This document shows, one piece after another, positions 1,958 to 57,070 of a DNA stretch of 64,000 bases; the first letter of the stretch is position 1, and each line of letters begins with the position of its first letter. The stretch is from Sabellastarte sp. h YS-2021 (lineage: Eukaryota; Annelida; Polychaeta; Sabellida; Sabellidae): contig OZ024927.1 in assembly GCA_964017235.1 (NCBI GenBank), forward strand, positions 27,361,160 to 27,425,159, given 5' to 3'. A program made the translations under genes and the position numbers. Under the pieces are notes generated by a model. It had not been told where the DNA came from and searched no databases. It saw only the letters and a program-made list of their open reading frames with translations.

Positions 1958-3469
1958 TATGTCCACCCATTATTTTTGCTTTTTCCGCCGTCCGGCGTCA
2001 CACTTGGTTTCCAGACATTTTAGGCAACAGTTCTTATCCTATCTTTACCAAATTTGGCATGCAGGTTTATTCGGTTAATAGCTTGTATGGGATTGCTTTT
2101 GGTGATGATAGTTCTATAGCTAACTGAATAATAGCTACTTTGCTACTTTTGAGTATCTCTTTGGTTTCCAGACATTTTAAGGAATGCTATTAAGCCTATC
2201 TTTCTGAAATTTGGTATGGAGGTTCATTGGGTTAATAGCTTGTATGGGATTGCTTTTGGGGGGAATTGCTTCATAGATGAGTGAGTAATTAATTAAATAA
2301 ATGAGTAATTGGCTATTTTGAATACTGAAAAAGGCAAGTGTGCTCATATCTCCTAAACCGTGCCAGATAGAGCGATTTCGTCAAAATTTTCAACCCACAG
2401 GGTATCTAAGGAATGTAATCTTTGCAATTTTAAAAAAATTTTCCCCTCCCCAAAAATGGCGGCCATTTTGAATTTTCGAATTTTTCCCAAAAATGGCAAA
2501 ACACAAAATTGCTTCTATCTCCTTAACCGTGCGAGATAGAGCGATTTCGTCAAAATTTTCAACCCACAGGGTATCTAAGGAATGTACTCTTTGCAATTTA
2601 AAAAAAAAATTTCCCCTCCCCAAAAATGGCGGCCATTTTGAATTTTCGAATTTTTGCCAAAAATGGCAAAACACGAATTTCCTTCTATCTCCTTAACCGT
2701 GCGAGATAGAGCGATTTCGTCGAAATTTGTGACCCACAGGGTATCTAAGAAATGTACTCTTTGCAATTTTCAAAAAATTTTCCCCTCCCCAAAAATGGCG
2801 GCCATTTGGAATTGTCGAATTTTTCCCAAAAATGGCAAAACACAAAATTGCTTCTATCTCCTTAACCGTGTGAGATAGAGCAATTTCGTCGAAATTTTCG
2901 ACCCACAGGGTATCTGAGCAATGTACTCTTGGCAATTTTCAAAAAATTTTCCCCTCCCCACATATGGCGGCCATTTTGAATTTTCGAATTTTTGCCCAAA
3001 ATGGAAAAACACAAATTTGCTTCTATCTCCTTAACCGTGCAAAATAGAGTTATTTCGTTGAAATTTTCGACCCATAGGGTATCTAAGAAATGTACTCTTG
3101 GCAATTTTCAAAAAATTTTCCTCTTCCCAAAAATGGCGGCCATTTTGAATTTTTGAATTTTTGCCAAAAATAGAAAAACAGAAATTTGCTTCTATCTTCT
3201 TAACCGTGCGAGATAGAGTGACTTCGTCAAAATTTTCGACCCAACCAATGCAAAAAGGCATGAAGCTGAAATAATTTACATGTACACTAATAAATATTTA
3301 AGCATCATTGATATATTTTACAAATGAAACAGGGTCTTGTAAGACTACTGTACAATTTTGGCAAAAGGTTCATGGGGTGGACATTACACACGATAATGTG
3401 TGTTCTTCTATGCTATCCTGTTTCTATTCATATGTCGCAGCTACTATCAACAGGGCGTCCTATTTCTAG
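1958..3469 (+). mobile_element. Hairpin-ended element A/D, copy 1, with 169-bp satellite core
   Basis: The left end is ATGTCCACCC (1959). A GTCCG-containing lead segment follows, then about six 169-bp units (2340-3240), then a unique 3' part with the complementary GGGTGGACAT (3375-3384), a small hairpin (ACACAC/GTGTGT) and the terminus CTAG at 3466-3469. Copy 2 (15256-19849) diverges right after CTAGTTT, which fixes the right end. The left hairpin is reduced here: its second arm is missing, unlike copy 2. It lies in a DHDDS intron. A non-autonomous Helitron/Helentron-like element is my inference; it encodes no protein. Confidence 0.75.
2340..3240 (+). repeat. 169-bp tandem satellite, about 6 units
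   Basis: The unit begins near TATCTCCTTAACCGTGCGAG and contains AAAATGGCGGCCATTTTGAA, itself partly palindromic (GGCGGCC core). CCGTGC phase marks at about 2358 and 3203 give five intervals of 169 bp. The flanking units are more degenerate than the middle ones. Short open frames on both strands follow the repeat period and are not genes. Confidence 0.9.
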
Positions 3470-3696
3470 TTTTTTATTAAAAAGGCCACATTAGTCATAT
3501 TTTGTTTGAAAAATGACATTTCATGTGAAATCATTATGGAAATTTCAAAGTGGATAACGAAAATAGTCTGCCATTGCATGAGTCTGATGGTGTGATCTAC
3601 AATGCTTTGTTTATTTCATACAAATAAATGATTTTAGTACTTACACATTGACAGTTTTATCTTGTTTTGAACCTGTTTTGCCTTTTCTGTCCACAG
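3470..3696. other. Intron tail upstream of DHDDS exon
   Basis: AT-rich sequence without an identifiable repeat. It ends in a pyrimidine-rich tract and CCACAG, the splice acceptor of the exon starting at 3697. Confidence 0.6.
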
Positions 3697-3811
3697 TGAT
3701 ATCAACGAAAGTCTACTAGAAAGATGTTTCTATAGTAACAAGTCACCTGACCCAGACTTATTGGTTCGAACATCGGGAGAAGTGAGACTCAGTGACTTTT
3801 TGCTATGGCAG
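3697..3811 (+). CDS. DHDDS: DHDDS, cis-prenyltransferase region V exon (internal)
   Basis: Internal coding exon of dehydrodolichyl diphosphate synthase, the catalytic subunit of the ER cis-prenyltransferase that extends farnesyl diphosphate with isopentenyl diphosphate to make the polyprenyl precursor of dolichol, the lipid carrier for N-glycosylation. One base completes a codon from the previous exon; 38 codons follow. They contain [18 protein letters not shown] then LLWQ, the conserved region V of the family, whose RTSGE-x-R-x-S residues help bind diphosphate and Mg. The acceptor is TTTCTGTCCACAG, the donor CAG|GTACAC, and the exon ends in phase 0. The N-terminal catalytic part (region I aspartate) must lie left of the window. 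Family identity is firm because the next two exons continue the same protein in order. Confidence 0.95.
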
Positions 3812-3855
3812 GTACACTGCTTATGTTTTTCTGCATGTATATGTTACAAATATGT

Positions 3856-4226: not shown

Positions 4227-4238
4227 TTACAAATATGT

Positions 4239-4756: not shown

Positions 4757-5691
4757 TTAACCCCAGATCATAAAGGCTGGGTGTTATAGTCGTCCCCTGT
4801 GCCATCCTGGCAGCGGCAGCTAGCATAAAGCTTGTGGGTGTTCCACAGCCTAAACCCCTGCACGGATTTTCACCAAATATTCAGGATATGTTTACCCCAA
4901 GAGGATCTAGAGTGGAATAGGTTTTGGGGGGTATCCGGTAACAATGGCAACACTTTTAAGATTTTCAGGTCTTAAAGCTTGTGGGTGTTCCACAGCCTAA
5001 ACCCCTGCACGGATTTTCACCAAATTTTCAGGACATGTTTACCTCAAGAGGATCTAGAGCTGATTAGGTTTGGGGGGGTATCCGGTAACAACTGTTGCCA
5101 TAGCAACACTTTTAAGATTTTGGGGTTTTAAAGTTTGTGGGTGTTCCACAGCCTAAACCCATACATGGATTTTCACCAAATTTTCAGGATGTGTTTACCC
5201 CAAGAGGATCTACAGCTGATTAGGTTTTGGGGGGTGTCCAGCGGCAACTGTTGCCATGGCAACACTAAAATTTTGGTAAAATTTGGGGGTCTTATAGTTT
5301 CTTCTCAAATCTTTGATATTTTCTGTAACCTAAAATATTGCAGCTAGCTTCATCAGATTTGCACAAAATATAAATGGATAGGAAAGCTTGCCTGAGAGTA
5401 ATTGTGTCCTTGTTTTGGAAACAAAATGACTGCCATATCACATCTTTAATGCCAAATAGTAGGGTCATCATATCAAAAAGGCCTTATATCTCCCTTATAA
5501 TTGCTTCTAGGGCTACAAAATATGAAAACTACTTGTAAGAAATCATAGCCTGTGAATCTTTTGTACAACATCTCGTGGGTTCTCTGTGCTTCTTACAGCA
5601 GAAGTTGTTCCTAAGATTTAACTAAATCTCAATGTTTTTGGCCATTTAGCTGTACCTGCGGGCTGGGGTTCTTGCCTGCCAAGGCTGGCTA
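4757..5691 (+). mobile_element. Hairpin-ended element E, copy 1
   Basis: The left hairpin arm AACCCCAG and CTGGGTGTT (4759-4784) are followed by GTCGTCCCC, then about three units of 147-155 bp starting TTGTGGGTGTTCCACAGCC (near 4831, 4978, 5133), then a unique 3' segment. The right end has GGGCTGGGGTT (5660-5670), complementary to the hairpin arm of copy 2, a short hairpin and CTA at 5689-5691 followed by T. Copy 2 is the reverse complement at 34196-35316 and confirms both borders. No coding capacity. Confidence 0.75.
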
Positions 5692-7095: not shown

Positions 7096-7106
7096 GTAAA
7101 AGTATT

Positions 7107-10210: not shown

Positions 10211-11210
10211 TTTTTAGGGTATTGTTTTCACCCATGGTGTCTGGATGGGCGGGCGGCAGGAAAAGTTTGTCCAGCCTGTATCTCAGAAACTGTAAGGTGT
10301 AGGAAGTTGATACTTGGTAGGGACATTGGTAAGGGGTATAGGTGTGCAACGTCATGGTCTGACCTTGATTTGACCTTGCCGCAGTGACCTTGACCTATAA
10401 AATCTTGTCCGGGCTATATCTCGGAAACTGTAAGGTGTAGGAAGTTGATACTTCTACGGACATCGGTTTTGGGGTTGTAGGTGTGCAATGTCATGGGGTG
10501 ACCTTGATTTGACCTTTGACCCTTGCTGTAGTGACCTTGACCTATAAAATCTTCACCAGGCTATATCTCTGAAAGCGTAAGGTGTAGGAAGTTGATACTT
10601 GGCAGGGACATTGGTTGGGGGTTGTAGGTGTGCATTGTCATGATGTGACCTTGATTTGACCTTTGACTTTGCTGTAATGCCCTTGACCTATAAAATCTTG
10701 TGTGGGCTATATCTCGGAAACTGTAAGGTGTAGGAAGTTGATACTTGGTAGGCACATTGGTTAGGGGGTGTAGCTGTGCAGCATCTTGATTTGACCTTGC
10801 TGTACTGATCTTAACCTATAAAAGCTTGTCCGGGCTATATCTCAGAAACAGTAAGGTGTAGGAAGTTGATACTTGGTAGGGACATTGGTTATGGGGGTAG
10901 GTGTGCAACATCATGGTGTGACCTTGATTTGACCTTTGAGCTTGCCGTAGTGACCTTGACCTATAAAATCTTGTCCGGGCTATATCTCAGAAAGCGTAAG
11001 GTGTAGAAAGTTGATACTTAGTAGGGACATTGGTTGGGGGGATGTAGGTGTGCAATGTCATGGTGTGACCTTGATTTGACATTTGATCTTGCCATAGTGA
11101 CCTTGACCTTTACAATTTTGTCCAGGGAATATCTCTGAAACTGTAAAGTGTAGGAAGTTGATGGTTCGTAGGGACATTGCTTAGGGGTTGTAGGTGTGCA
11201 TCATAGTTTT

Positions 11211-12193
11211 TAGGTGGGTTGCATGTAACCAACCCGCCAGTTAGATTGATGTGTCCGACGTCCGTCTGTCCGTCCACATTTTTCGTTTCCGGAATCTAAT
11301 TCCAAAATGGTTTGTCCAATCGAATTCAAACTTGACAGGGACATATATCACCATCATAGCTAGGTCCCTTTCGAAATTGGTGTAATTCCGTCTGTTCGTT
11401 TGTCTGTTTTTTGTCCGTTTGTCCATCCATCTGTCCGTCCACATTTTTGTTTCCGGACTCTAACTCGAAAACGGTTTGTCCAATCGAATCAAACTTGACA
11501 GGGAGATAGATCACCATCATAGCTAGGTTCCTTTCGAAATTGGTGTAATTCTGTCTGTTCGTTTGTCTGTTTTTTGTCTGTTTGTCCGTCAAAATTTCTG
11601 TTTCCGGACTCTAACTCGAAAACGGTTTGTCCAATCAAATTCAAACTTGACAGGGAGATAGATCACCATCATAGCTAGGTTCCTTTTGAAATTGGTGTTA
11701 TTCCGTCTGTTCGTTTGTCTGTTTTTTGTCTGTTTGTCCGTCAGAATTTCCGTTTCTGGACTCTAACTCGAAAACGGTTTGTCCAATAAAATTCAAACTT
11801 GACAGGGAGATAGATCACCATCATAGCTAGGTACCTTTCGAAATTGGTGTAATTCCGTCTGTTTGTTTGTTCGTCAACATTTCCGTTTCCGGACTCTAAC
11901 TCAAAAACGCTTTGTCCAATCGAATTCAGAATTCGACAGGGAGATACATCACCATCATAGCTAAGTTGCTTTTGAAATTGGTGTAATTCTGTCCTTTCGT
12001 TTCTCCGTTTATAGCATAGATACAATTATGTAACCTAGATTACAAGTTTTATGTTTCTTAGCACATCTAACACATTCACCCTAACTGGGTGACCTAACAT
12101 TTCTTTCCTTGTTTCTAAATGTAATTACAGCAGTCGCAAACCTTATTGCTGCTTGCGCAACCCACCTTTTGGGGCATCTTTGACCCTCTTGTT
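11211..12193 (+). mobile_element. Family C hairpin-ended element nested in B
   Basis: The left hairpin arms GGTGGGTT and AACCCGCC (11213-11238) are followed by GTGTCCGACGTCCGTC and about five minisatellite units with TAACTCGAAAACGGTTTGTC. The unique 3' end matches 1529-1710 and carries GCGCAACCCGCC, the complement of the hairpin's first arm, ending CCCTCTTGTT. It interrupts the B element: B-specific 3' sequence resumes directly at 12194. Confidence 0.75.
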
Positions 12194-12285
12194 AGTTTAC
12201 TGATTAATGCTGTCATCTTGCAATTGAATTGTCTTGTTTTAATACTTCATCTTTGCATACATTTTGATTCACTAAGATGTTTTAT

Positions 12286-12806
12286 TATCCACCACGCAAC
12301 GTATTTGACCTAAATACGGGGAAATACAGACCGGGATGTATTTTTTTTGTATACACCGGCGCCCCGGTACTATGAATATTGAGTGTGGATAACTTTTATT
12401 TTTTCAACAATATCTCGGAAAGTATGTAACTTAAAAATATGTATAATATATCATTAGAAAGGTGTTATTCTAGCGCTTCTGCTCATGTATGTTGCATAAA
12501 TATCCATGCAGAAATGACTGAGATATTGCCAGGTAAAGAATGAAGTTTTTATATTCAGTATTGCTCATGCTTTTTGACAGACTTTTTCACGTTCTCTCAT
12601 TAAATATTCATATTATTTTACCCATAAATCACATAAAATGGTGGATAATAAAAGTAAAACATCCCTCATCAGACGTATACAGAAAAAATATATCACTCAT
12701 GAAGATTAACAATATAATACTCGTGCTGCGCACTCGTATAATATTGTTATCTTCATTCGTGATATATTTTTTCTGTATACGTCATTCGGGACGTTTTCCT
12801 ATTATT
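12286..12806. mobile_element. Fold-back insertion nested in B
   Basis: The inserted DNA is bounded by the B sequence TATTA on both sides. Its right part (about 12643-12806) is a large imperfect hairpin: arms of roughly 80 nt around a short centre near 12725, containing CGTATACAGAAAAAATATAT and its complement. The left part starts TTATCCACCA and the complement TGGTGGATAA occurs at about 12633-12642. The 92-codon open frame at 12540-12818 runs through the hairpin and is not credible as a gene. Confidence 0.65.
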
Positions 12807-12951
12807 TTCTCTACTTAAACATCATTTAGACCTTAATATAACTGACACTGCTGTGAAAGTATCCAGATCTTTGTACTGTTTCATTACTTCTATATCTCAT
12901 GGTGTTGAAACTATTTCCCCAGGCTGTGGGATACCGGCATCTCTGATGCTA

Positions 12952-15255: not shown

Positions 15256-18200
15256 TATGTCCACCCCCCTGGGGGGTGGATATATTATTTTTGCTTTTTT
15301 CGCCGTCCGATGTCCGATGTCCGGCGTCCGGCGTCCGGCGTCCGATGTCCGGCGTCACGCATGGTTTCCGCTCATTTAAAGGAAAAGTATTAGAGCTATT
15401 GTCACCAAATTTGGTATGCAGGCTTATTGGGTCAGTAGCTTGCTTGGGATTGCTTTTGGCTGTTGTACCTCTTTTGCTTACTGAGTAATACTTAAGTACA
15501 GCTATTTTCAGTACCCATTGGTTTCCGTGCATTTAAGCCAAAATAATTAAAGATATTTTACTACAATTTTGAATACAAGATTGTTATGTCCATAGCTCGC
15601 TTGGTATTGCATTTGGGACTGATAGCTTTGTCAGTACATGAGTAATAGCCATTTAGGTACTTCATTGTGTATTTTCAGTACTACTTTTGAGTAATTTGCT
15701 TGTATCTCCTTAACCGTGCAAGATAGAGCGATTTTGGCAAAATTTTCGACCCGCAGGGTATCTGAGGAGTGTACTCTTTGCAATTTTCAAAAAATTTTCC
15801 CCTCCCCAAAAATGGCGGCCATTTTGAATTTTCGAATTTTTGCCAAAAATGGCAAAACACTAATTTGCTTCTATCTCCTTAACCGTGCGAGATAGAGCGA
15901 TTTCGGCAAAATTTTCGACCCACAGGGTATCTGAGGAGTGTACTCTTTGCAATTTTCAAAAAATTTTCCCCTCCCCAAAAATGGCGGCCATTTTGAATTT
16001 TCGAATTTTTGCCAAAAATGGCAAAACACAAATTTCCCTCTATCTCTTTAACCGTGTGAGATAGAGCGATTTCGTCGAAATTTTCAACCCACAGGGTATC
16101 TAAGGAGTGTACTCTTTGCAATTTTCAAAAAATTTTCCCCTCCCCAAAAATGGCGGCCATTTTGAATTTTCGAATTTTTGCCAAAAATGGCAAAACACAA
16201 ATTTGCTTCTATCTCCTTAACCGTGCGAGATAGAGCGATTTCGTCGAAATTTTCGACCCACAGGGTATCTAAGGAATGTAATATTTGCAATTTTCAAAAA
16301 ATTTTCCCCTCCCTAAAAATGGCGGCCATTTTAAATTTTCGAACTTTTGCCAAAAATGGCAAAACACAAATTTGCTTCTATCTCCTTAACCGTGCGAGAT
16401 AGAGCGATTTCGTCAAAATTTTCGACCCACAGGGTATCTGAGGAGTGTACTCTTTGCAATATTCAAAAAATTTTCCCCTCCCCAAAAATGGCGGCCATTT
16501 TGAATTTTCGAATTTTTGCCAAAAATGGCAAAACACAAATTTGCTTCTATCTCCTTAACCGTGCGAGATAGAGCGATTTCGTCAAAATTTTCGACCCACA
16601 GGGTATCTGAGGAGTGTACTCTTTGCAATTTTCAAAAAATTTTCCCCTCCCCAAAAATGGCGGCCATTTTGAATTTTCGAATTTTTGCCAAAAATGGCAA
16701 AACACTAATTTGCTTCTATCTCCTTAACCGTGCGAGATAGAGCGATTTCGGCAAAATTTTCGACCCACAGGGTATCTGAGGAGTGTACTCTTTGCAATTT
16801 TCAAAAAATTTTCCCCTCCCCAAAAATGGCGGCCATTTTGAATTTTCGAATTTTTGCCAAAAATGGCAAAACACAAATTTCCCTCTATCTCCTTAACCGT
16901 GCGAGATAGAGCGATTTCGTCGAAATTTTCGACCCACAGGGTATCTGAGGAGTGTACTCTTTGCAATTTTCAAAAAATTTTCCCCTCCCCAAAAATGGCG
17001 GCCATTTTGAATTTTCGAATTTTTGCCAAAAATGGCAAAACACAAATTTCCCTCTATCTCCTTAACCGTGCGAGATAGAGCGATTTCGTCGAAATTTTCA
17101 ACCCACAGGGTATCTAAGGAGTGTACTCTTTGCAATTTTCAAAAAATTTTCCCCTCCCTAAAAATGGCGGCCATTTTGAATTTTCGAATTTTTGCCAAAA
17201 ATGGCAAAACACAAATTTGCTTCTATCTCCTTAACCGTGCGAGATAGAGCGATTTCGTCGAAATTTTCGACCCACAGGGTATCTAAGGAATGTAATATTT
17301 GCAATTTTCAAAAAATTTTCCCCTCCCTAAAAATGGCGGCCATTTTAAATTTTCGAATTTTTGCCAAAAATGGCAAAACACAAATTTGCTTCTATCTCCT
17401 TAACCGTGCGAGATAGAGCGATTTCGTCAAAATTTTCGACCCACAGGGTATCTGAGGAGTGTACTCTTTGCAATTTTAAAAAAATTTTCCCCTCCCCATA
17501 AATGGCGGCCATTTTGAATTTTCGAATTTTTGCCAAAAATGGCAAAACACTAATTTGCTTCTATCTCCTTAACCGTGCGAGATAGAGCGATTTCGGCAAA
17601 ATTTTCGACCCACAGGGTATCTAAGGAATGTAATATTTGCAATTTTCCAAAAATTTTCCCCTCCCCAAAAATGGCGGCCATTTTGAATTTTCGAATTTTT
17701 GCCAAAAATGGCAAAACACAAATTTCCTTCTATCTCCTTAACCGTGCGAGATAGAGCGATTTCGTCGAAATTTTCAACCCACAGGGTATCTAAGCAATGT
17801 AATATTTGCAATCTTCCAAAAATTTTCCCCTCCCCAAAAATGGCGGCCATTTTGAATTTTCGAATTTTTGCCAAAAATGGCAAAACACAAATTTGCTTCT
17901 ATCTCCTTAACCGTGCGAGATAGAGTGATATCGTCGAAATTTTCGACCTACAGGGTATCTAAGGAATGCAATCTTTGCAATCTTCAAAAAATTTTCCCCT
18001 CCCCAAAAATGGCGGCCATTTTGAATTTTCGAATTTTTGCCAAAAATGGCAAAACACAAATTTGCTTCTATCTCCTTAACCGTGCCAGATAGAGCGATTT
18101 CGTCGAAATTTTCGACCCACAGGGTATCTGAGCATTGTACTCTTGGTAATTTTTAAAAAATTTTCCCCTCCCCAAAAATGGCGGCCATTTTGAATTTTCG

Positions 18201-19849
18201 AATTTTTGCCAAAAATGGCAAAACACAAATTTGCTTCTATCTCCTTAAGCGTGCGAGATAGAGCGATTTTGTCGAAATTTTCGACCCACAGGGTATCTAA
18301 GGAATGCAATCTTTGCAATTTTCAAAAAATTTTCCCCTCCCCAAAAATGGCGGCCATTTTGAATTTTCGAATTTTTGCCAAAAATGGCAAAACACAAATT
18401 TGCTTCTATCTCCTTAACCGTGCGAGATAGAGCGATTTCGTTGAAATTTTCGACCCACAGGGTATCTAAGGAATGTAATATTTGCAATTTTCAAAAAATT
18501 TTCCCCTCCCTAAAAATGGCGGCCATTTTAAATTTTCGAATTTTTGCCAAAAATGGCAAAACACAAATTTGCTTCTATCTCCTTAACCGTGCGAGATAGA
18601 GCGATTTCGTCAAAATTTTCGACCCACAGGGTATCTGAGGAGTGTACTCTTTGCAATTTTCAAAAAATTTTCCCCTCCCCAAAAATGGCGGCCATTTTGA
18701 ATTTTCGAATTTTTGCCAAAAATGGCAAAACACTAATTTGCTTCTATCTCCTTAACCGTGCGAGATAGAGCGATTTCGGCAAAATTTTCGACCCACAGGG
18801 TATCTGAGGAGTGTACTCTTGCAATTTTCAAAAAATTTTCCCCTCCCCAAAAATGGCGGCCATTTTGAATTTTCGAATTTTTGCCAAAAATGGCAAAACA
18901 CAAATTTCCTTCTATCTCCTTAACCGTGTGAGATAGAGCGATTTCGTCGAAATTTTCAACCCACAGGGTATCTAAGGAATGTAATATTTGCAATTTTCCA
19001 AAAATTTTCCCCTCCCCAAAAATGGCGGCCATTTTGAATTTTCGAATTTTTGCCAAAAATGGCAAAACACAAATTTGCTTCTATCTCCTTAACCGTGCGA
19101 GATAGAGTGATATCGTCGAAATTTTCGACCTACAGGGTATCTAAGGAATGCAATCTTTGCAATCTTCCAAAAATTTTCCCCTCCCCAAAAATGGCGGCCA
19201 TTTTGAATTTTCAAATTTTTGCCAAAAATGGCAAAACACAAATTTGCTTCTATCTCCTTAACCATGCGAGATAGAGCGATTTCGTCGAAATTTTTCAACC
19301 CACAGGGTATCTAAGGAATGTAATCTTTGCAATTTTCAAAAAAATTTCCCCTCCCCAAAAATGGCAGCCATTTTGAATTTTCGAATTTTTGCTTAAAATG
19401 GAAAAACACAAACTGGCCTTAACCGTGCAAAATAGAGTTATTTTGTTGAAATTTTCGACCCATAGGGTATCTAAGAAATGTACTCTTGGCAATTTTCAAA
19501 AAAATTTCCTTTTCCCAAAAATGGCGGCCATTTTGAATTTTCAAATTTTTGCCAAAAATAGAAAAACAGGAATTTGCTTCTATCTTCTTAACCGTGCAAG
19601 ATAGAGTGATTTCGTCAAAATTTTCAACCCAACCAATGCAAAAAGGCATGAAGCTGAAATAATTTACATCTACACTAACAAATATTTAAGCATCATTGAT
19701 ATATTTTACAAATGAAACAGGGTCTTGTAAGACTACTGTACAATTTGGGCAAAAGGTTCATGGGTGGACATTACACATGATAATGTGTGTTCTTCTATGC
19801 TATCCTGTTTCTATTCGCATCTACTATCAACAGGGCGGCCTATTTCTAG
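15256..19849 (+). mobile_element. Hairpin-ended element A/D, copy 2, 4.6 kb
   Basis: The left hairpin has arms TCCACCCCC and GGGGGTGGA (15260-15280). It is followed by repeated GTCCGATGTCCGGCGTCC, a lead segment shared with copy 1, 24 satellite units, and a right part with GGGTGGACAT (19762-19771) complementary to the left arm. A hairpin ACACAT-GATA-ATGTGT (19773-19788) and terminal CTAG (19846-19849) before TTT close the element. Copies 1 and 2 differ mainly in array length (6 against 24 units). Non-coding. Confidence 0.8.
15695..19630 (+). repeat. 169-bp tandem satellite, about 24 units
   Basis: CCGTGC phase marks run from 15714 to 19592, which is 23 intervals of 169 bp with few indels. 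Variants (TCGGCAAAATTTTCGACCC, TTTGCAATCTTCC, ATTTTAAATTTTCG) recur in the same order in several blocks, indicating block duplication. Open frames of 74-110 codons on both strands are periodic artefacts of the 169-bp unit. Confidence 0.95.
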
Positions 19850-19992
19850 TTTATATAATGTATGACCCTAAATGGGTCAGATATTCAACTTATTGCTTTA
19901 TATCTCTTCAATTATTGCAGTTAGAGCTTGGGGATGCAATGGGAGGAAATCAGAAACCAACGCCTTTGACTCCAAACAAACATCAAGTCTGC

Positions 19993-20044
19993 CCCCCCCC
20001 CCCCCCCCCCCCCCCCTCCCCCCCCCCCCCCCCCCCCCCCCCCC
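19993..20044. repeat. Poly-C tract
   Basis: About 50 C with a single T, followed by GGGTCAAACC. It creates a poly-proline open frame that is not a gene. The length may be unreliable in assembly. Confidence 0.9.
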
Positions 20045-23787: not shown

Positions 23788-23789
23788 GT

Positions 23790-36690: not shown

Positions 36691-36699
36691 AACAGGAAT

Positions 36700-37940: not shown

Positions 37941-38382
37941 GATTAGAAGGAAAGAAAAATTTGAAAGCCCAAAAAGTTATTCATGGGAGTCCATAATCCA
38001 GCGGCGTCAGTGATCAGTCGAACTTACGTGAAAACTAGACCTAGTGCATCGGAGAACCAATGCAAATTGTATCCACCATAAAGACAATGCACCAAAACCT
38101 CTAGGACCAATAATGTATGTTGTATCCTGTATGTTGGTTTACCATCCCAAACCACTAGGAAGATTAGAAGGAAAGAAAAATTTGAAAGCCCAAGAAGTTA
38201 TTCATGGGAGTCCATAATCCAGCGGCGTCAGTGATCAGTCGAACTTACGTGAAAACTAGACCTAGCGCATCGGAGAACCGATGCAAATTGTATCCACCGT
38301 AAAGACAATGCACCAAAACCTCTAGGACCAATAATGTATGTTGTATCCTGTATGTTGGTTTACCATCCCAAACCACTAGGAT
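37941..38382. repeat. 221-bp direct duplication of family I 3' end
   Basis: Units start GATTAGAAGGAAAGAAAAAT at 37941 and 38162 and are nearly identical. Each contains the 3' hairpin (GCATCGG-AGAA-CCGATGC or its one-mismatch version) and ATTGTATCCACC. Thus the terminal piece of element I is present twice in tandem. Confidence 0.85.
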
Positions 38383-40954: not shown

Positions 40955-41519
40955 TCAGGGTCAAGAGTAAACTCTATAGTGTAGTAAATGTCATTGTTCA
41001 ATGGGGCTTTGTGGTACAGCAATCAAAACGAGTGCTTCCTGTCTTAGTTGACAGGCTTTCCATTAGCATACTTATATGATAAACTTATGGTACACCAAGA
41101 TACAAAAGAAGGAAAATAGTATTAGAGATGCCCAAAGCCCACAGCCAGGGGAACTAGAGTTCGGACACCATGAGATACAGAAAACATGAAACAGTACAAA
41201 CATCAGCAGACTTCAGAACAGTATAAGCTATGTAAAGGACAAATAAGGCTTGAGAGAGAGAAAATGTAAGTAAAGACAAAAGTATTAAGGCAAGACAATT
41301 CAATAGCAAGAATACTGTATTAATTAGCAAACTAAAGTTATAAATATTTTAACTGAAGTATGGCTGTCAATGGTGATTAAACTCCTCGGTAACAGTTCTG
41401 ATAATCAGTTGCAGCAATGCATATGTCATTCTGACAGGGGAAATATGTCTCATATTTAATGTGGTTGGTACTTCATATTGGAACCCACAAAATTATTATG
41501 AAGGACCATTTTACATTTT

Positions 41520-42575
41520 ATGGACTGTTGTAGAGGGAGAGGTCTATCTAAGTAATTTAAATGGGAAGAGTGTGTTAGAGGTGTGGTAGAGCTCTAAAAT
41601 AGTTGTATATTTGAGTGGAACTCGACCACATTTTAGGGGGTGTGGTATAGTAAGAGGTCTATCCCAGTAATTTCAATGGGGAGAGCACAGTAGAGGTGTG
41701 GTAGAGATTGGTAGAGGTTTGATATAGTTATATATTTGAGTGGACCTCTGCCACATTTTAGGGGGTTTGGTACAGGTAGAGGTCCATCCCAGTAATTTGT
41801 ATTAGAAGGGTGTGGTAGAGGTGTGGTAGACGTCAGATACAGTTATACATATCAGTGGACCTCTGCCACATTTTAGGTAAAGGTAGAGGTCTATCCCAGT
41901 AATTTCAATGGGAAGAGAATGGTAGATGTGTGGTAGAGATATGGTAGATATCTGACAGAGTTATACATTTGATTGGACCTCTACCACATTTTAGGGGGTT
42001 TGGAAGAGGTAGAGGTCTATCCCAGTAATTTGTATTGGAAGGTAGTGTTGGTATCAAATAAAAATATGTATATCGATATCAAACCAAATTTTTACCTTCT
42101 GTATCGATCGATATTGAAATATCGGGCATGAGATGCTTTCCTGGGGGACACCTTCCAAACTCTTTTGCAAGGTTTAGTAGTGTCTCGAAAAGTAAAACTT
42201 ACCGAAAATGATATAAAAATCAATATAATCTTCAAATTGTGTACTTAATCTTAATGGAAGACAGCAGAGATGAATCTATTTTGTGGTATGTTCCGATATT
42301 GATATTGTACCCTACATTATTAATATCGGCAAATTTAGCAAGAAATGATAAATATTTCAATATCAATAAACAATACCAGCACTACTGGAAGGACATGGCA
42401 GAGGTGTGGTAGAAATGTGGTCGAGGTCTGATGTAATTATAGATTTGACTGGACCTCTACCACATTTCAGGGGGCGTGGTAGAGGTCTACCCCAGTAATT
42501 TGTATTGGAAGGACGTGGTACAGGTGTGATGAAAGTCTGATATAGTTATACATTTGATTGGACCTCTACCACATT
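41520..42575. repeat. GTGGTAGAGGT minisatellite inserted in B
   Basis: Units of about 107-125 bp with GTGGTAGAGGT, its near complement ACCTCTACCACATTT, and TATCCCAGTAATTT. Direct and inverted motifs alternate, so each unit can fold on itself. It is interrupted by the MITE at 42043-42384. Confidence 0.8.
42043..42384. mobile_element. hAT-like MITE, 342 bp
   Basis: Terminal inverted repeat TAGTGTTGGTAT / ATACCAGCACTA (one mismatch) flanked by TTGGAAGG (42035-42042) and CTGGAAGG (42385-42392), an 8-bp target duplication with one mismatch. Interior AT-rich with ATCGATATC motifs. No frame. Confidence 0.8.
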
Positions 42576-44109
42576 TTACACTTCATGGTTCAGAGATATT
42601 GCCTAGACAAAATTTTACGGTCAAGGTCCCTACGGCAAGATCAAAGGTCAAATCAAGGTGACACCATGACATTGCACACCTACAACCCCCAACCAATGTC
42701 CTTACCAAGTATCAACTTCCTACACCTTAAGGTTGCCGAGATATAGCCCCGACAATATATTATAGGTCAAAGTCACTACGACAAGGTCAAAGGTCAAATC
42801 AAGGTCACACCATGACGTTGCACACCTACACCCCCTAACCAATGTCCCTACCAAGTATCAACTTCCTATATCTTACAGTTTCCAAGATATAGCCCGGACA
42901 AGATTTTATAGGTCAAGGTCACTACGGCAAGGTCAAATCAAGGTCAGACCATGACGTTGCACCCCCTAACCAATGTCCCTACCAAGTATCAACTTCCTAC
43001 ATCTTACAGTTTCCAAGATATAGCCCGGACAAGATTTTATAGGTCAAGGTCACTACAGCAAGGTCAAATCAAGGTCACACCAAGACGTTTGCACACCTAC
43101 ACCCCCCTAACCAATGTCCCTACCAAGTATCAACTTCCTACACCTTACGGTTTCCGAGATATAGCCCGGACAAGATTTTATAGGTCAAGGTCACTACGGC
43201 AAGGTCAAAGGTCAAATCCTGGTCAGACCATGACGTTGCACACCTACACCTCCTAACCAATGTCCCTACCAAGTATCAACTTCCTACACCTTACAGTTTC
43301 CGAGATACAGTCCGGACAAGATTTTATAGGTCAAGGTCACTACAGCAAGGTCAAATCAACGTCACACCAAGACGTTGCACACCTACACCCCCTAACCAAT
43401 GTCCCTACCAAGTATCAACTTCCTACACCTTACGGTTTCCGACATATAGCCCGGACAAGATTTTATAGGTCAAGGTCACTACAGCAAGGTCAAATCAAGG
43501 TCACACCAAGACGTTTGCACACCTACACCCCCCTAACCAATGTCCCTACCAAGTATCAACTTCCTACACCTTACGGTTTCCGAGATATAGCCCGGACAAG
43601 ATTTTATAGGTCAAGGTCACTACGGCAAGGTCAAAGGTCAAATCAAGGTCAGACTATGACGTTGCACAACTACACCCCCTAACCAATGTCCCTACCAAGT
43701 ATCAACTTCCTACACCTTACAGTTTCCGAGATATAGCCCGGACAAGATTTTCAAACTCAAGGTCACTACGGCAAGGTCAAAGGTCAAATCAAGGTCAGGC
43801 CATGACGTTGCACACCTACACCCCCTAACCAATGTCCCTACCAAGTATCAACTTCCTACACCTTACGGTTTCTGAGATACAGCCCGGACAAACTATTTCC
43901 CGCCACCCGCCCATCCGGACACCATGGGTGAAAACAATACCCCGACAGCCCTTAAGGGCTGTGGGGTAAAAAGGATTTATTTTCACTCAGTAATGTTTGT
44001 ATGTTGAAGGGGAATATGAGAGAATATGGGTGAATACATTTGTAGGTATTTGTATTTGAGGCAAATCTCCAGTTTTATGTCTGGTTGTGCCACGGCTCTA
44101 CACGCAAGT

Positions 44110-46712: not shown

Positions 46713-49700
46713 CTAGATTGGGCCAACTCGGCGCCAACATATCCCCAGACAGGTCATCACTCACGCCACAGGTTTTGATCGGGAATTTTTTATTTAATCC
46801 ATTTGTTGTATGCCATAAATATTGGGAAAAGTTATATGAACTTCAGCACATCAATCTACTAAGTTTATATCTTCCCAAGGAAGATGGTGTATCCCCAGAC
46901 GTCGAATACATAACTCAACAGATCATATTTTCAATCTTCCTGCAATGATAACTCTGAACCTATTTTCAAAGTATTTAAATGATTGATGATTGAATGTCCA
47001 TTCTAAATTAATAATCTCAAAAGAGCATATCTCTTTCTATATTTGTTGACAAATAAAATATTATTTTTAACTCAACTCGTCATACTTTTCAATCTTCCTG
47101 CAAAGGGTAACTCTGAACGTATTTTCAAAGTATTTAAATGATTGATGATTGAATGTCCATTCTAAATTCATAATTCCAAAAGCGTATCTCTGTTTCTATA
47201 TTTGTTCACAAATAAAATATTATTTAAAAATCATATATTATTTATATTATTATTTTATTATATTATTTTTAGAATTTGCATTGTTTTTCAGTTATTCATT
47301 TCCTCAATTCCTATATATGTGGTCCATATATATGCAACCTAAATATGTGACACAATCTCAGTTCTGACTCCCTTTGTCTTAGATAATTAGATAATGAAGC
47401 AAACACCACCTCCCACCCCCACCCCACCTCTCTCCCCTTCTCCACACCTCTCTCACTATTACAGAAGATCTGTATACCTTTGTTTATTTAGTGTCACTCA
47501 ATAGCTGGAGGTCCCAGAGGTGGGTGGGGGATGGGGGGTGGGACTACAAAGAGATGGAGTGCTGCAGCACAAATGGTAAACAAACACTTATAATATAAAA
47601 GGGGTAATCAAATACAAAAAGCTCAGTTAATCTTATCACTAAAATAAAATCAAATATATAAATAAGGAATGTCCAACAGGAAGATTATATACCTCCAGAA
47701 TTAAATATAAATTATCAAACGACAAGAACAGATTTATAATAATAATTCAGAATTGAGAATTTTAAGTATGTGATTATCAATTGAAATGAGTTCGTAACTG
47801 TAGGAGCTGTGTCAAAATTAAGGCAAGTTGAATAAAACTGGGCTAGTTGAGGGTTAAAAATCCCCTATTTTTACTACATAAGGCTATAATTTCATTAATA
47901 TTTGGGACTTAAAGCTCACCAGAAAATAACAGTGTCCATTTTGCCTACTTGAATATGTTTAACCAGTTTCATATTAAAAAGTTAAAAACTCAGCAAGCAG
48001 AGAGATAACACACAAAAATAAGTTCTTACAAGCCTAAGATAGCCATAACATTATTAATATTCAAAATTTAAATAGACAGGCACTTCCTTTGAAAAATTCA
48101 AAGATTTCAGCTCTATGAGCCACATAGTTTGACAGTTACAGGGCTTTAAAGTGGCATAATATCCATAAATTGGGTCTCTGTGGGCATTTTACAATTGTTT
48201 AAGAGACCTTAGCAATTAAACTACAGAACTGAAACTTTTTGGGGGACATACACAACAAACAAAAATTATATATAATACAGTTTAAGACTTGTCACACTAA
48301 GCATTTCCAAATAACAGGGCAAAATACAGAAAAAAATGTCAAAAAAGGTCACTTGGGCAAGTGTCTATGGCCCTCATACACAGTTTAAATGTCTACTAAA
48401 AGCCTTAATTTTCGGCAGATGTGAAAAGGACATAATAATGCATTCCCAGATGGGATTTCAGCTCAATCAATCACATAGTTTAACAGTCACAGGGCTTAAA
48501 GGTGGCAAAAACTCCAAATATTGGGTCTCTGTGGGCCTTTTAGAGATCTCGATGTGGCCTTCAAATTAAAGCATCAGACTTAAAATCTGCTACATACTAA
48601 GACTACACATAGAATATGTATCTAATACTAAAGTTTGAAACTTCTCAGATTCACCATTTCCAAGTTACAGAGCAAAATATATGAAAAATGTCTTAAAACG
48701 GTCACTCGGGTGGGTGTTAATGGTCCTCATACACAGTTTAAATGTCTACTTGAAGCCTTGATTTTTGGCACATGTAAAAAGAACATAATAATGTATTCCC
48801 AGATGAGATTTCAGCTCTATCAGTCACATAGTTTAACAGTCATGGGCCTTAAAACTGGCAAAAAGTCCAAATAGTGGGTCTCTATGGGGCCTTTTAGAGA
48901 CCTCAATGTGGCCTTCAAATTAAAGCTTCAGACTTAAAATTTGTCACATACTAAGATTACACATAGAATATGTAGCTAATACAGTTTGAAACTTCTCAGA
49001 CTTACCATTTCCAAGTTACAGGGCAAAATATGTGAAAAATGTCTAAAAAGGGTCACTCGGGTGGGGATTTATGGTCCTCAAACACAGGTTAAATGTCTAC
49101 TTAAAGCCTTGATTTTCGGCACATGTAAAAAGGACATAATAATGCATTCCCAGATGGGATTTCAGCTCCATCAATAACATAGTTTAACAGTCACAGGGCT
49201 TAAAGGTGGCAAAAAGTCCATATATTGGGTCTTTGGGAGCCCGTCAGAGACCTCAATTTGACCTTCAAATTAAAGCTTCAGACTTAAAATCTGTTACATA
49301 CTAACATTACACATAGAATATATATCTAATACAGTTTGAAACTTCTCACACTTACCATTTCAAAGTTACAGAGCAAAATATGTGAAAAATGTCTTAAAAG
49401 GGTCACTCGGGTGGGTGTTTATGGTCCTCATACATGGGTTAAATGTCTATTAAAGGCCTAAATTTTGGAGTACATAAAAGAAAAACATATTGATATATTC
49501 TCAGATGATATTTCACTTAGATGAGAGACATAGTTTGAAAGCTACAGTGCTTGAAGATGGCAAAAAGTCCATAAATTGGGTCTCTGTGGGCAATTTTGAG
49601 ATCTTAAGTCGGCCTAACAGGTAAACCTACAGCCTTTAAATTTTTCACAGACAAGGGTTACATATAAGAGTTACATCTAGTGCAGTTTGAGACTCATCAG

Positions 49701-50140
49701 AATTACCACTTCCAAATTATAGGGCAAAATAAGTTAAAAATATAGGAAAAAAGTCCTAAGTGGGGTCTTTATGGGCCTCAAAGACAATTTTCTCCTCCAC
49801 TTAAAGTCTTGATTTTCGGCACATGTACTAAGAATATATTAATGTGTTCTCAGGTAAAATTTGAGGCAGATAAGCCTCATAGTTTGTGACCTAGACGGCT
49901 CTAAGTGGCCAAAAGTGCAATTTCTGACCTTAAGGTGGCCATAAGTTCTTTATTATTGGGACTTTAAGGTCACCTTAAAATAGGGATATTCCTTTGGGCA
50001 TCCTTAACATGTATACCAAGTTTGAAAAAAAAATATTAATCTGTTTTTGAGTTATCGCGTCCACAAGGAAATTTCTACAGCGGCGGCGGCGCGACGGACC
50101 TGAATCCAATATATCCCCAACTTTCGTCTGGGGATATAAT
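46713..50140 (-). mobile_element. Hairpin-ended element J, copy a, 3.4 kb
   Basis: On the - strand the left end is ATTATATCCCCAGAC with a hairpin (arms ATATCCCCA/TGGGGATAT, 50108-50137), then GTCCGTCGCGCCGCCGCCGC, TAACTCAAAAAC (50043-50054), units of about 351 bp (48.3-49.8 kb), and a unique AT-rich 3' part. GTCTGGGGATAT (46739-46750) is complementary to the left arm, followed by a bulged hairpin TTGGCGCC/GGCCCAA and CTAG (46713-46716) before TTT. Copy b diverges at both ends, which defines the borders. Short frames such as 48336-48569 are repeat artefacts. Confidence 0.8.
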
Positions 50141-50811: not shown

Positions 50812-53800
50812 CTAGATTGGGCCAACTCGGCGCCAACATATCCCCAGACAGGTCATCACTCACGCCACAGGTTTTGATCGGGAATTTTTTAAAACATAAT
50901 TACCCATTATTATATGAACTTCAGCACATCAATCTACTCTGTTTATATCTCCCCAAGGAAGATGGTGTATCCCCAGACGCCGAATACATAACTCAAATTA
51001 TATTTTCAATCTTCCTGCAATGATAACTCTAAACCTATTTTCAAAGTATTTAAATGATTGATGATTGAATGTCCATTCTAAAATAATAATCCCAAAAGAG
51101 CATATCTGTTTCTATATTTGTTGACAAATAAAATATTATTTTTAACTCAACTCATCATATTTTTCAATCTTCCTTCAAAGTATTTAAATGATTGATGATT
51201 CAATGTCCATTCTAAAATTCATAATCCCAAAAGCGCATATCTGTTTCTATATTTGTTCACAAATAAAATATTATTTAAAAAAAAATTATTTATATTATTA
51301 TTTTATTATATTATTTTTAGAATTTGCAAATTGTTTTCAGTTATTCATTTCCTCTATACATATATATGCAACCTAAATATGTGACACAATCTCAGTTCTG
51401 ACTCCCCTTTGTGTTATATGTAATGAAGCCCACCACCTCCCACCCCCACCCCTCTCCCCTTCTCCACACCTCTCTCACTATTACACAAGATCTGCAACCC
51501 CATTGAGTTCTTTGTTTCTCATCTGATATCATTAAATACCTTTGTTTATTTAGTGTCACTCAATATAGCTGGAGGTCCCAGAGGTGGGTGGGGGGAATCC
51601 GGGTGGGGGATGTGGGTTGAGTATAAATGGTAAACAAACAATCTATATAAAAGGGGTACTCAAATACAAAAAGAATTGAGAATTTTAAGTATGTGATTAT
51701 CAACTGAAATGAGTTCATAACTGTAGGAGCTGTGCCAAAATTAACTGAGGCAAGTTGAATAAAACTGGGCTAGTTGAGGGTTAAAAATCCCCTAGTTTTA
51801 CTACATAAGGATATAATTTCATTAATATTGGGACTTAAAGCTCACTTAAAGTGTCCATTTTGTCTACTTGAATATGTTTAACCAGTTTCATTTTAAAAAG
51901 TGAAAAACTCAGCAAGCAGAGGTATAACACACAAAAATAAGTTCTTAAAAGACTAAGATAGCCATAACATTATTAATATTCAAAATTTAAATAGACAGGC
52001 ATTTCCTTTTAAAAATTCAAAGATTTCAGCTCTATAACCCACATAGTTTGACAGTTACTGGGCTTTAAAGTGGCATAATATCCATAAATTGGGTTTCTGT
52101 GGGCATTTTACAATTGTTAAAGAGACCATAGCAATTAAACTACAGATCTGAAACTTTTTGGGGGACATACATAACAAACAAAAATTATATATAATACAGT
52201 TTAAGACTTGTCACACTAAGCATTTCCAAATAACAGGGCAAAATACGGAAAAAATGTCAAAAAAGGCACTTGGGCGAGTGTCTATGGCCCTCATACACAG
52301 GTTAAATGTCTACTAAAAACCTTGATTTTCGGCATATGTAAAAAGGACATAATAATGCATTCCCAGATGGGATTTCAGCTCCATCAATCACATAGTTTAA
52401 CAGTAACAGGGCTTAAAGGTGGTAAAAAGTCCAAATATTGGGTCATTGTGGGCCTTTTAGAGATCTCGATGTGGCTTTCAAATTAAAGCTTCAGACTTAA
52501 AATTTGTTACATACTAAGATTACACATAGAATATGTATCTAATAAAGTTTGAAACTTCTCAGACTTACCATTTCCAAGTTACAGAGCAAAATATGTGAAA
52601 AATGTCTTAAAAGGGTCACTCAGGTGGGTGTTTAAGGTCCTCATACACAGGTTAAATGTCTACTTGAAGCCTTGATTTTTGGCACATGTAAAAAGAACAT
52701 AATAATGTATTCCCAGATGAGATTTCAGCTCTATCAGTCACATAGTTTAACAGTCACAGGCCTTAAAATTGGCAAAAAATCCAAATACTGGGTCTTTATG
52801 GGCCCTTCTAGAGACCTAAATGTGGCCTTCAAATTAAAGCTTCAGACTTAAAATTTGTCACATACTAAGATTACACATAGAATATGCATCTAATACAGTT
52901 TGAAACTTCTTAGACTTACCATTTCCAAGTTACAGGGAAAAATATGTGAAAATGTCTAAAAATGGTCACTCGGGTGGGGATTTATGGTCCTCATACACAG
53001 GTTAAATGTCTTCTTAAAGCCTTAATTTTTGGCACATATAAAAATAACATACTAATATCTTCTCAGATAGGATTTGAGCTCTATCAGTCACATAGTTTGA
53101 CAGTCACAGGGCTTAAAAGTAGGAAAAAGTCCAAATATTGGGTCTTTGGGAGCCTTTTAGAGACCTCAATTTGACCTTCAAAATTAAAGCTTCAGACTTA
53201 AAATCTGTTACATACTAAGATTACACACAGAATATATATCTAATACAGTTTGAAACTTCTCAGACTTACCATTTCCAAGTTACAGGGAAAAAGATGTGAA
53301 AAATGTCTTATAAGGGTCACTCGGGTGGGTGTTTATGGTCCTGATACACAGGTTAACTGTCTATTAAAGGCCTAAATGTTGGGGCACATATAAGAAAACA
53401 CATAGATATATTCCCAGATGATATTTAACTTAGATGAGAGACATAGTTTGAAAGCTACAGTGCTTGAAAGTGGCAAAAAGTGCATAAATTGAGTCTCTGT
53501 GGGCACTTTTGAGACCTTAAGTCGACCCCTTTGGGTAAACCTACAGCCCTAAAATTTTCTACAGACAAGGATTACATATCAAAGTTATACCTAGCGCAGT
53601 TTGAGACTCATCAGAATTATCACTTCCAAATTATAGGGCAAAATATGTGAAAAGTATAGCAAAAAATCCCTAAGTGGGGGTATTTATGGACCTCAAACAC
53701 AATTTTCTCCTCAACTTAAAGTCATGATTTTCGGCACATGTACTAAGAACATATTAATGTGTTGTCAGGTAAAATTTCAGCCAGCTGAGCATCATAGTTT

Positions 53801-54058
53801 GTGACCTACAGGGCTCTAAGTGGCCAAAAGTGCAATTTCTGACCTTAAGGTGGCCATAAGTTCTTTTTTACTGGGAGTTTAAGGTCACCTTAAAATAGGG
53901 ATCTTCCTTTGGGCACCCTTAACATGTGTACCAAGTTTGAAAAAAAAATATTAATTTGTTTTTGAGTTATCGCGTCCACAAGGAAATTTCTACGGCGGCG
54001 GCGGCGGCGCGACGGACCTGAATCCAATATATCCCCGACTTTCGTCTGGGGATATAAT
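50812..54058 (-). mobile_element. Hairpin-ended element J, copy b, 3.2 kb
   Basis: Same layout as copy a: left hairpin at about 54028-54056, GCGGCGGCGGCGCGACGGAC on the + strand beside it, TAACTCAAAAAC (53958-53969 on the - strand), about four units near 351 bp, complementary ATATCCCCAGAC at 50838-50849, and CTAG at 50812-50815. Differences from copy a are mostly small indels, so the two insertions are related but not a recent duplication. Confidence 0.8.
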
Positions 54059-54284
54059 TATGTATAGGTTCCTAAATTAACGGGGGTTAGAAAAGTCTTG
54101 TTATTGTAAGGTACTGATCTTTTGAACGGACATTAAGTGCTATAAAAGTTTATTAGGTTTAGAATAAAAATCGTCATAAGTGTAACACATATTTATTTTC
54201 TTTATATTTTGTTTCTATTTTTTCCATGAGGCACATTTGACAATCATTATCCATCATGTAGTTTCAATAATAAGTCAAATATAT

Positions 54285-57070
54285 AACAAGAGGAGAGTGC
54301 CCGTGAACGGGCACTGTGTCAGCTGACTGAATGTTTTTGATTTGTGATGGTGATAATGAGAGGAAAGCATAATTATCAGGGAAAGGGCTGTACAGAAATA
54401 CAGTAAATGGTAACTGAACAGCATGTTCGAAAGATATTCCGAAGCTGACAGAAGAAAAGGACAAAAAAGTTGTGCCCTGCAAATGGTATTATGAAATAAA
54501 GTAACAAGGTAATTGTTTAAGTGTAAAAAGTAGGTTACAAATATTTAAAGAAATACTATAAATCCAATATCCTCGTTCGACCATGAAGAAGGGGTCCAAA
54601 GGTCAAATCTGACCATACCAAAAGATTCCCAGCCAAAGAATTTAGGATGGTTTACCATCCCAAACCTCTCAGACCAATAATAAGTGAGTCATAGGCACTT
54701 TTTAAGTTTGGCTATCCTTGTTTGACCTTGAAGGAGGGGTCCAAGGTCAAATCAGACCACACAAAAAATTCCCAGCCCATGATTTCCTGTAGCTTGTTTA
54801 CCATCCCAAACTTGTAGGACCAATAATAAGCGAGTTCTAAGCAATTGTAAGTTTGGCTATCCTCAATTGACCTTGAAGGAGGGGTCCCAGGTCAAATCCG
54901 ACCACACCAAAAGATTCCCAGCCCATGATTTTCTATAGGTTGGTTTTCCATTCCAAACCTCTAGGACCAATAATAAGCGAGTTATAAGCATTTTAAGTTT
55001 GGCTATCCTCATTTGACCTTGAAGGAGGGGTCCAAGGTGAAATCCGACCACACCAAAAAATTCCCAGCTCATGATTTTCTATAGGTTGGTTTTCATTCCA
55101 ACCTCTAGGACCAATAATAAGCGAGTTATAAGCACTTTCATGTTTGGCTATCCTCATTTGACCTTGAAGGAGGGTTCCAAGGTCAAATCGGACCATATTA
55201 ACAGATTCCCAGCCCATGATTTCCTACAGGTTGGATACAATGATTTACTCAACAGTGAGAACCTGAAAGAAGCTATTGCTCAGCTATGCCATGACATAGA
55301 GGTCTGCAATTTCAATATGTTATAGCTGACCAAAACGTCTGTGAATAACATATTTAACAAAATACTCTAAATGTAATAGTTTTCAAGTTACAACTGATTT
55401 ACTCAACAGTGAGAACCTCAAAGTAACTATTACTCAGCTATGCAATGAGCTACATGTCTGAATTTTTGCTCTGTTATAGCTGACCTAAAAGTAGGTGAAC
55501 AACATATTTAAGCAAAATACTGTAAATGCAATAGTTTTCAAGTTACAACTGATTTACTCAATAGTGAGAACCTGAAAATAGCTATTGCTCCACTATGCCA
55601 TGAGCTATAGGTCTGTAATTTCACTATGTTATAGCTGACCCAAAAGTAGGTGAACAATATATTTTAACAAAATACTCCAAATGCAATATTTTTCAAGTTA
55701 TAGCTGATTTACTCAACAGGCAGTGCCTGAGAATAGCTATTGCTCAGTTGTGCCATGAGCTACAGGTCTGTAATTTCACTATGTTATAGCTGACCCAAAA
55801 GTAGCTGAATAACATATTTGCACAAATTTCTGTAAAGGCAATAGTTTTCCAATTACAACTGATTTACTCAACAGTGAGAACTTCAAAGTAGCTATTACTC
55901 AGCTATGCAATGAGCCACAGGTCTGGAACTTCACTATATTATAGCTGACCCCAAAATAGGTGAATAACATATTGCAACAAAATACTCTAAATGCAATATT
56001 TTTCAAGTTATAAGTGATTTACTCAACAGTGATAACCTAAAAGTAGCTATTACTCAACTATGCCATGAGCTACAGGTCTGAAATTTTACTATGTTATAGC
56101 TGACCCAAAAGTAGCTGAATAACATATTTATACTAAATTCTCTAAATGCAATAGTTTTCAAATTACAAGTGATTTACTCAACATTGAGAACTTCAAAGTA
56201 GCTATTACTCAGCTATGCCATGAGCTACAGGTCTGAAATTTTACTATGTTATAGCTGACCCAAAAGTAGGTGAACAACATATTTATATGAAATTCTCTAA
56301 ATGCAATAGTTTTGAAGTTATAAGCGATTTACTCAATAGTGATAACCTAAAAGTAGCTATTACTCAGCTATGCCATGAGCTACAGGTCTAAAATTTTACT
56401 ATGTTATAGCTGACCCAAAAGTAGCTGAATAACATATTTATACGAAATTCTGTAAATGCAATAGTTTTTAAGTTACAAGTGATTCTACTCATGATGGAAG
56501 TTACTGAAAAGCCCAAAAGTAGCTATTACTCACTTAGCTATTGAGACAGGCACCCAACTTACTCACCATATTGTAGCTATGAAAAAAGTAGCTGAATAAC
56601 ATATTTTAACAAAATGCTCTAAATGCAACACTTTTCAAGTTATAAATGATTTTGTGCATGATTTCATGAATTTTAATGCATTAAAAATTATTAAAAAAAT
56701 TTATTAAAAAAAAAGTAAGACAGATCCAGGTCTCATACTCACACAAGAGAATCTACCTGTGGCCTAGTACATATATGCAAGATATGAGAGAAATCCCTGC
56801 AATAGTCACTGAGAAAATTGTGATTAAGTGTTGAAATTTTCACACTTTTGGTGGCGGTAGACCCCTTGTAATGTCTCTAGCAAACAGACGAACAGACAGA
56901 TTTGCATGCCTTGAACAATTTTTCATCCTCGATAGATAAGGTATCTTTTAAAAAAAACAGCACGTCTCTAGGCCTTGTAGTTTTGGAGGAGAAGTTGTTC
57001 ACGCGGACGCGGACGCCCACGCCGCAGAGTGACGACATAATGTCAGCTGACTGACAAGTCAGCTGACATA
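54285..57070 (-). mobile_element. Hairpin-ended element K, chimeric core
   Basis: On the - strand the left hairpin at 57041-57068 has 12-bp arms (TGTCAGCTGACT/AGTCAGCTGACA, loop TGTC), then GGCGTGGGCGTCCGCGTCC, a lead segment and about nine 155-bp units. Four or five family I units (54560-55235) follow. AGTCAGCTGACA (54317-54328) is complementary to the left arm. A perfect 8-bp-stem hairpin AGTGCCCG-TTCA-CGGGCACT (54296-54315) and CCTCTTGTT end it. The terminus resembles family C (CCCTCTTGTT) rather than the CTAG group. Confidence 0.8.
55242..56500 (-). repeat. 155-bp tandem array (K core), about 9 units
   Basis: GATTTACTCAACAGTGAGAA at 55242, 55396 and 55551 and onward every 154-155 bp, with TATGTTATAGCTGACC in each unit. 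Units are moderately diverged and fade after about 56500. Confidence 0.9.

Follow-up and report, generated by a model that had tools for sequence, protein, structure and literature searches.

The window, that is, the 64,000-nt stretch of the Sabellastarte sp. contig OZ024927.1 that was analyzed, is crowded with several families of small mobile elements whose sequences look unrelated, while the layout of their ends is common to all (Table 1). Self-comparison of the window placed the repeat copies of family A at 2 and 15–20 kb, of B at 10–13, 22–24, 27–28 and 41–44 kb, of C at 1 and 11–12 kb, of E at 5 and 34–35 kb, of J at 47–50 and 51–54 kb, and of K at 36 and 54–57 kb, with family I present in a single copy. 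A tandem core array, which the earlier note had ascribed to each of the seven named families, was recovered in every one of them by Tandem Repeats Finder, with units of 169 bp (A/D), ~147 bp (B), 152 bp (C), 156 bp (E), 147 bp (I), 351 bp (J) and 155 plus 145 bp (K). The quoted arm motifs were also all found at the expected positions. Several element copies have lost parts.

Table 1. Elements of the seven families in the window (positions are those of the window; a slash marks the element border).
Element	Position	Strand	Description
A1	1959..3469	+	Family A/D, 169-bp tandem core; 5' hairpin lacks its second arm
A2	15257..19849	+	Family A/D, 5' hairpin ATGTCCACCC.., 23-copy 169-bp core, 3' GGGTGGACAT, possible 6-bp stem, CTAG end
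B1	10217..12950	+	Family B without first 5' arm; contains C2 and another insert (~12285-12805)
B2	22.5-24.4 kb		Family B; no defined 5' end, not in 5'-end counts
B3	26862..28017	-	Complete family B; arm ACCCCACAGCC, 3' GGCTGTGGGGTA, GCATC hairpin, CTA/TTTT
B4	41117..43967	-	Family B, degenerate 3' end; foreign minisatellite inside (~41.5-42.6 kb)
C1	1205..1708 (start approximate)	+	Family C without 5' hairpin, 3' end intact; follows a different hairpin-bearing 5' end
C2	11212..12191	+	Family C nested in B1; 5' hairpin AGGTGGGTTGC, 3' GCAACCCACCT, CTCTTG/TT
E1	4759..5691	+	Family E, 156-bp core
E2	34196..35315	-	Family E; arm AACCCCAGCCC, 3' GGGCTGGGGTT, CTA/TTTT
I	38256..40717	-	12-bp 5' hairpin, 147-bp core (13.5 copies), 3' CGGTGGATACAAT, 7-bp hairpin, CTAG
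J1	46713..50137	-	Arm ATATCCCCAGAC, 351-bp core, 3' GTCTGGGGATAT, CTAG
J2	50812..54055	-	Second family J element; flanks differ from J1 flanks
K1	54287..57069	-	13-bp 5' hairpin, 155-bp core then directly I-type ~145-bp array, 3' AGTCAGCTGACA, 8-bp hairpin, CTCTTG/TT
K2	36230..36693	-	5' part of another K element; hairpin with a paired C-G to T-A change; no 3' end

The proposal that each family begins with a hairpin held for at least one copy of each of the seven but not for every copy, the structure being present at 11 of the 14 named-family ends: 17 nt are missing after the first arm in A1, the first arm is gone in B1, and the hairpin is absent in C1. Because the hairpin is missing there, these three were left out of the folding set; B2, whose 5' end is undefined, was not counted. 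The hairpin between the first and second arms formed in all 11 folded ends (A2, B3, B4, C2, E1, E2, I, J1, J2, K1 and K2), and eight 5' hairpins folded against shuffles gave z values from -1.7 to -6.1. The hairpins of K1 and K2 differ by the one paired change listed in Table 1, and the hairpin is kept.

The complement of the first arm, reported near the far end of each family, was indeed found there in all seven, in at least one copy, with a length of 13 nt in I, 12 nt in B3, J1, J2 and K1, 11 nt in C2 and E2, 10 nt in A2, 9 nt in B4 and 8 nt in E1. The best ungapped score was 8–13 in 21 same-family pairs, against a mean of 5.9 and a maximum of 10 in 122 cross-family pairs, and the 3' end of the own family was the best match for 11 out of 11 5' ends. 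In nine tests with 500 shuffles each (B4 was left out), the observed score was reached by 0–2 of the 500 shuffles in eight; E1 (38 of 500) is alone in having its complement within the shuffle range. Erosion has affected the 3' complement of B1 and that of B4. When computed with DNA parameters, the hairpin is at none of the 11 5' ends more stable than the duplex between the arm and the 3' repeat; the margin is narrow in K2, for which the 3' end of K1 was used (-13.0 for the duplex versus -12.9 for the hairpin). As a test of specificity these energies are imperfect because GC-rich ends cross-pair: A2, E1 and E2 (3 of 11) each obtain a better score with a 3' end from outside their own family.

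Large as the tandem cores are, the notion that they represent stand-alone satellite arrays with chance palindromes alongside and no mobile unit is contradicted by a cognate complement exceeding shuffles in all of the tests but one, by the families A, E and J, each with two copies that agree at both ends and not in their flanks, and by the location of C2 within B1; its probability is negligible. Another possibility is that the families are cut-and-paste MITEs that a DDE transposase moves and whose terminal inverted repeats are imperfect, since the 5' arm and the 3' repeat are inverted copies of 8–13 nt, as in short terminal inverted repeats. However, the 3' repeat is sub-terminal, lying ~18–31 nt inside the border in six families and ~78 nt inside it in A/D (hand count), the latter distance exceeding the published ranges. 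Moreover, an element with true terminal inverted repeats within the window (23156–23788) looks different.

The second short hairpin, placed by the earlier note at every 3' end, is the least secure feature of the layout. It proved clear in B, I and K, with 2 (B1), 5 (I) and 4 (K1) of 200 shuffles folding at least as well. It did not go beyond shuffles in A/D, C and J (21 of 200 for A2, 22 for C2 and 27 for J1) and was unsupported in E (43 for E1 and 50 for E2); the degenerate 3' end of B4 was equalled or surpassed by 144 of 200. The 6-bp stem of A/D sits ~60 nt from the border. Thus, the layout proposed as common to seven families stood in its core, the 5' hairpin and the 3' complement, and the full version holds in three, as the 3' hairpin is supported only in those.

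A blind structural scan of the window was run at two settings. The strict one gave six matches, four at A2, K1 and I (twice) and two spurious, with one match in 20 shuffles. The looser one gave 25, of which seven fell at A2, K1, J1, J2, I (twice) and E2 and 18 were spurious, 15 of these involving tandem arrays; its controls gave a mean of 0.25 per shuffle and six matches in the reversed, not complemented, window. Families B and C were both missed by the scan. Since arrays and the reversed control also give matches, the counts are not clean and were rejected as evidence.

Alignment of the copies showed abrupt borders at both ends in A, E and J and at the compared ends in B, C and K. The copies of family A have the 5' end TTATGTCCACCC in common and stop at CTAG/TT, those of E have TTTTTAACCCC and CTATTTT, and those of J have TTATATCCCC and CTAGTTT. 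The 5' ends of family B (B3 and B4) have TTTTTACCCC in common and those of K TTTTTATGT, and the 3' ends of C terminate at CTCTTGTT. Overall, the 3' ends read as had been stated: CTAG/TT in A, I and J, CTA/TTTT in B and E, and CTCTTG/TT in C and K. The presence of CTAG before T in three families, together with a good upstream hairpin in I, is reminiscent of canonical Helitron1 (5'-TC, CTRR-3', A/T target). At the place of CTRR, A, I and J have CTAG, and the other four families have CTA (B, E) or CTTG (C, K). However, no delimited 5' end starts with TC, and all 11 are preceded by T instead of A. In addition, the elements here possess a 5' hairpin and asymmetric inverted repeats, both absent from Helitron1 as described in PMC3627910, making a Helitron1 origin very unlikely.

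The neighbors at both borders were at least TT in all 11 delimited elements, and no target duplication of constant length was present across them, the border repeats varying from 0 to 6 nt. Direct repeats were absent at three borders and 3–6 nt long, of varying length, at eight, while repeats of at least 3 nt occurred in 14% of random pairs; in our reading, this excess results from the T-rich flanks. Although direct repeats at 8 of 11 borders would suit the MITE explanation, they are T- or AT-rich and of variable length, and together with the inward position of the 3' repeat this renders a cut-and-paste origin highly improbable. The 6-nt border repeat of C2 was taken as chance because the repeat lengths differ among elements. 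The insertion of C2 in B1 was also tried as a test for an empty site. Its two junctions agree with B3, but ~170 bp of B3 between them are absent from B1, so that C2/B1 offers no clean empty site; its right-hand start fitted poorly in the multiple alignment.

The GTCC/CpG-rich spacer described behind the hairpin was present in most elements, but E2 is without GTCC and K2 showed nothing of it. Taken together, the 5' hairpin, the asymmetric sub-terminal repeat, the T-rich site without constant target duplication, the tandem core, the GTCC-rich spacer and, in three of the seven families, the 3' hairpin support the HINE/pearl-like reading that had been put forward. At least seven families are very probably non-autonomous rolling-circle transposons of the Helitron2/Helentron type (HINEs; 'pearl'-like with tandem cores). 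They fit the published description of Cg_HINE, Helitron2 and HINE elements, spacer included, and are therefore filed, on structure, as new HINE families, their likeness to Cg_HINE being one of published layout and not of compared sequence identity.

In the description of Helitron2 (PMC3627910), both ends have hairpins and the inverted repeats are asymmetric, the 5' repeat being located inside its hairpin and the 3' repeat directly preceding the hairpin at its own end. The families studied here resemble it in the 5' hairpin, asymmetric inverted repeats (8–15 bp in Helitron2), the preference for T at the 5' end and the pairing-switch model. They differ in having no Rep/Hel coding (Pfam search of window ORFs of at least 110 aa), in a 3' hairpin that is weak or unsupported in four families, and in the 3' repeat of A/D, which is farther from the end (PMC3627910). 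Membership in the Helitron2 class is compatible with a weak 3' hairpin, because among the Fusarium Helitron2-group elements, which have related ends, some are without it (PMC5148889). According to Thomas and co-workers, HINE ends are closely similar to Helitron2 ends (PMC4067079). With HINE/DINE-1 elements, the families here share palindromic sub-terminal inverted repeats (subTIRs), as in mite HINEs, insertion at TT or T-rich sites, a non-coding nature and optional tandem repeats, but the 3' repeat is closer to the border than the 38–60 nt given for HINE/DINE-1, A/D excepted (PMC4067079).

A matching layout is that of the 11 Cg_HINE elements of the Pacific oyster (Crassostrea gigas), which form unrelated families in one genome (Vojvoda Zeljko and co-workers, PMC7492417). 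Several of these carry a GTCC/GTCY/GTCK microsatellite, their tandem cores are 138–181 bp, and two have double arrays. The likeness covers the 5' subTIR with its complementary inverted repeat, the 3' subTIR with a palindrome, T-rich sites without target site duplication, the GTCC-type microsatellite, the tandem core, several unrelated families per genome and two-array elements (PMC7492417). Unlike Cg_HINE, the J core unit is ~351 bp, and the 3' hairpin is supported in only three of seven families (PMC7492417). The bivalve pearl elements (Gaffney 2003, via PMC7492417 and PMC11136912), with ~160 bp tandem cores flanked on both sides by conserved termini, are likened here by layout and not by compared sequence. 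The shared end layout is thus already described for Helitron2/Helentron and their short oyster derivatives, and the window is a good but ordinary example of it.

Bao and Jurka noted compensatory changes and proposed that the 5' hairpin is destroyed when the two repeats pair with each other as replication ends (PMC3627910). By extension of their model, a Rep/helicase supplied in trans would nick the 5' end, and rolling-circle replication would peel off one strand. The 3' repeat would then pair with the 5' arm and displace the 5' hairpin, helping to mark the end point, whereby the 3' hairpin, where present, may assist termination; the peeled strand would insert into T-rich DNA. The same plan of base pairing at the ends of seven families unrelated in sequence supports, independently and in compact form, the end model published for Helitron2.

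No match to Rep or a PIF1-like helicase was found by Pfam in the 21 stop-to-stop ORFs of at least 110 aa in the window. Above the curated cut-off, the ORFs matched TMEM161 and reverse transcriptase, and below it Phage_integrase, in the retrotransposon. Further matches below the cut-off came from two ORFs in the I array, one also antisense (weak VIF, thiamin pyrophosphokinase, Kelch_HCF and CO_deh_flav_C), and from 19690–20148 (PRIMA1); these are weak and were taken as chance. A single Helentron-type replicase had been suggested for all families. Their 3' ends fall into three classes (CTAG, CTA and CTCTTG), a division under which the families could have more than one replicase partner. Likewise, none of 10 autonomous oyster elements could be linked to the Cg_HINEs by their authors (PMC7492417).

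Self-comparison also revealed that an array of 145–147 bp occurs in both I and K in the same orientation; in K, it directly adjoins the 155-bp array of K itself. Outside the array, comparison of the I and K flanks gave no similarity above chance, and the phases of the two arrays differ at start and end. A comparison of 13 units from I with 2 from K, the latter taken from a single K copy, gave a unit identity of 0.91 for the 78 pairs inside I, 0.87 for the 26 mixed I–K pairs and 0.855 for the only pair inside K. Each Cg_HINE array cluster is tied to one specific flank pair, whereas the I-type array here lies in two unrelated flank pairs (PMC7492417); the sharing is therefore a small departure, on one K copy. 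Core arrays may tentatively be regarded as modules exchangeable between unrelated HINE families, a reading to which we give slightly less than an even chance. The common array suggests a route by which satellite-like repeats could be spread by elements of this kind. Existing knowledge of the class is altered neither by this array nor by the base-pairing plan of the seven families. In element I, moreover, the 3' end and its flank are repeated in a 221-bp tandem copy.

A probable further element, L, is nested in the copy of the HINE-type family B at 22.5–24.4 kb (see the table). Its core has a 151-bp tandem unit at 23865–24139; its imperfect inverted repeat was spotted by eye and is absent from the repeat-finder output. 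An insert at 23156–23788 carries 26-nt inverted repeats (CTAATGCCCAGGTCACACAGTGGCGA) and is MITE-like.

The insert that distinguishes B1, the family B element without the first 5' arm, from the complete copy B3 may be another element with asymmetric repeats, this one lacking an array; a hairpin whose arms measure 35 nt comes after the repeat pair. Its borders show a possible short TATTA repeat, so that other transposon classes are also possible for this insert. The sequence of C1, a family C copy without the 5' hairpin, lies downstream of a hairpin-bearing 5' end of a different type, which likely represents a separate family into which C1 is nested.

Positions and defining traits of the additional features
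Feature	Position	Strand	Details
Candidate element L	22961–24300		5' ATCTCCTGCTGGG; 3' CCCCCGTAGCAGAT, then CTTG|TTT
Insert in B1 relative to B3	12285–12805		TTTTATTATCCACCA/TGGTGGATAATAAAA separated by 344 nt
5' end with hairpin, distinct from the family of C1	754–1376		ACCTCCGCCAAGGAGGT; two 309-bp tandem copies
Tandem duplication	37939–38381		221 bp, 98%; covers 3' border of element I and its flank
Retrotransposon	58430–63510		reverse transcriptase ORF, Pfam E 1.7e-18
Exon, TMEM161 family protein	31892–33262	minus	Pfam E 3.4e-174

The retrotransposon has a perfect 71-nt inverted repeat at 58430/58729 and an overlapping ORF with a tyrosine-recombinase match of 16.2 bits, below the Pfam cut-off of 27.1; we would guess that it is DIRS-like. 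The TMEM161 exon is consistent with an animal genome.
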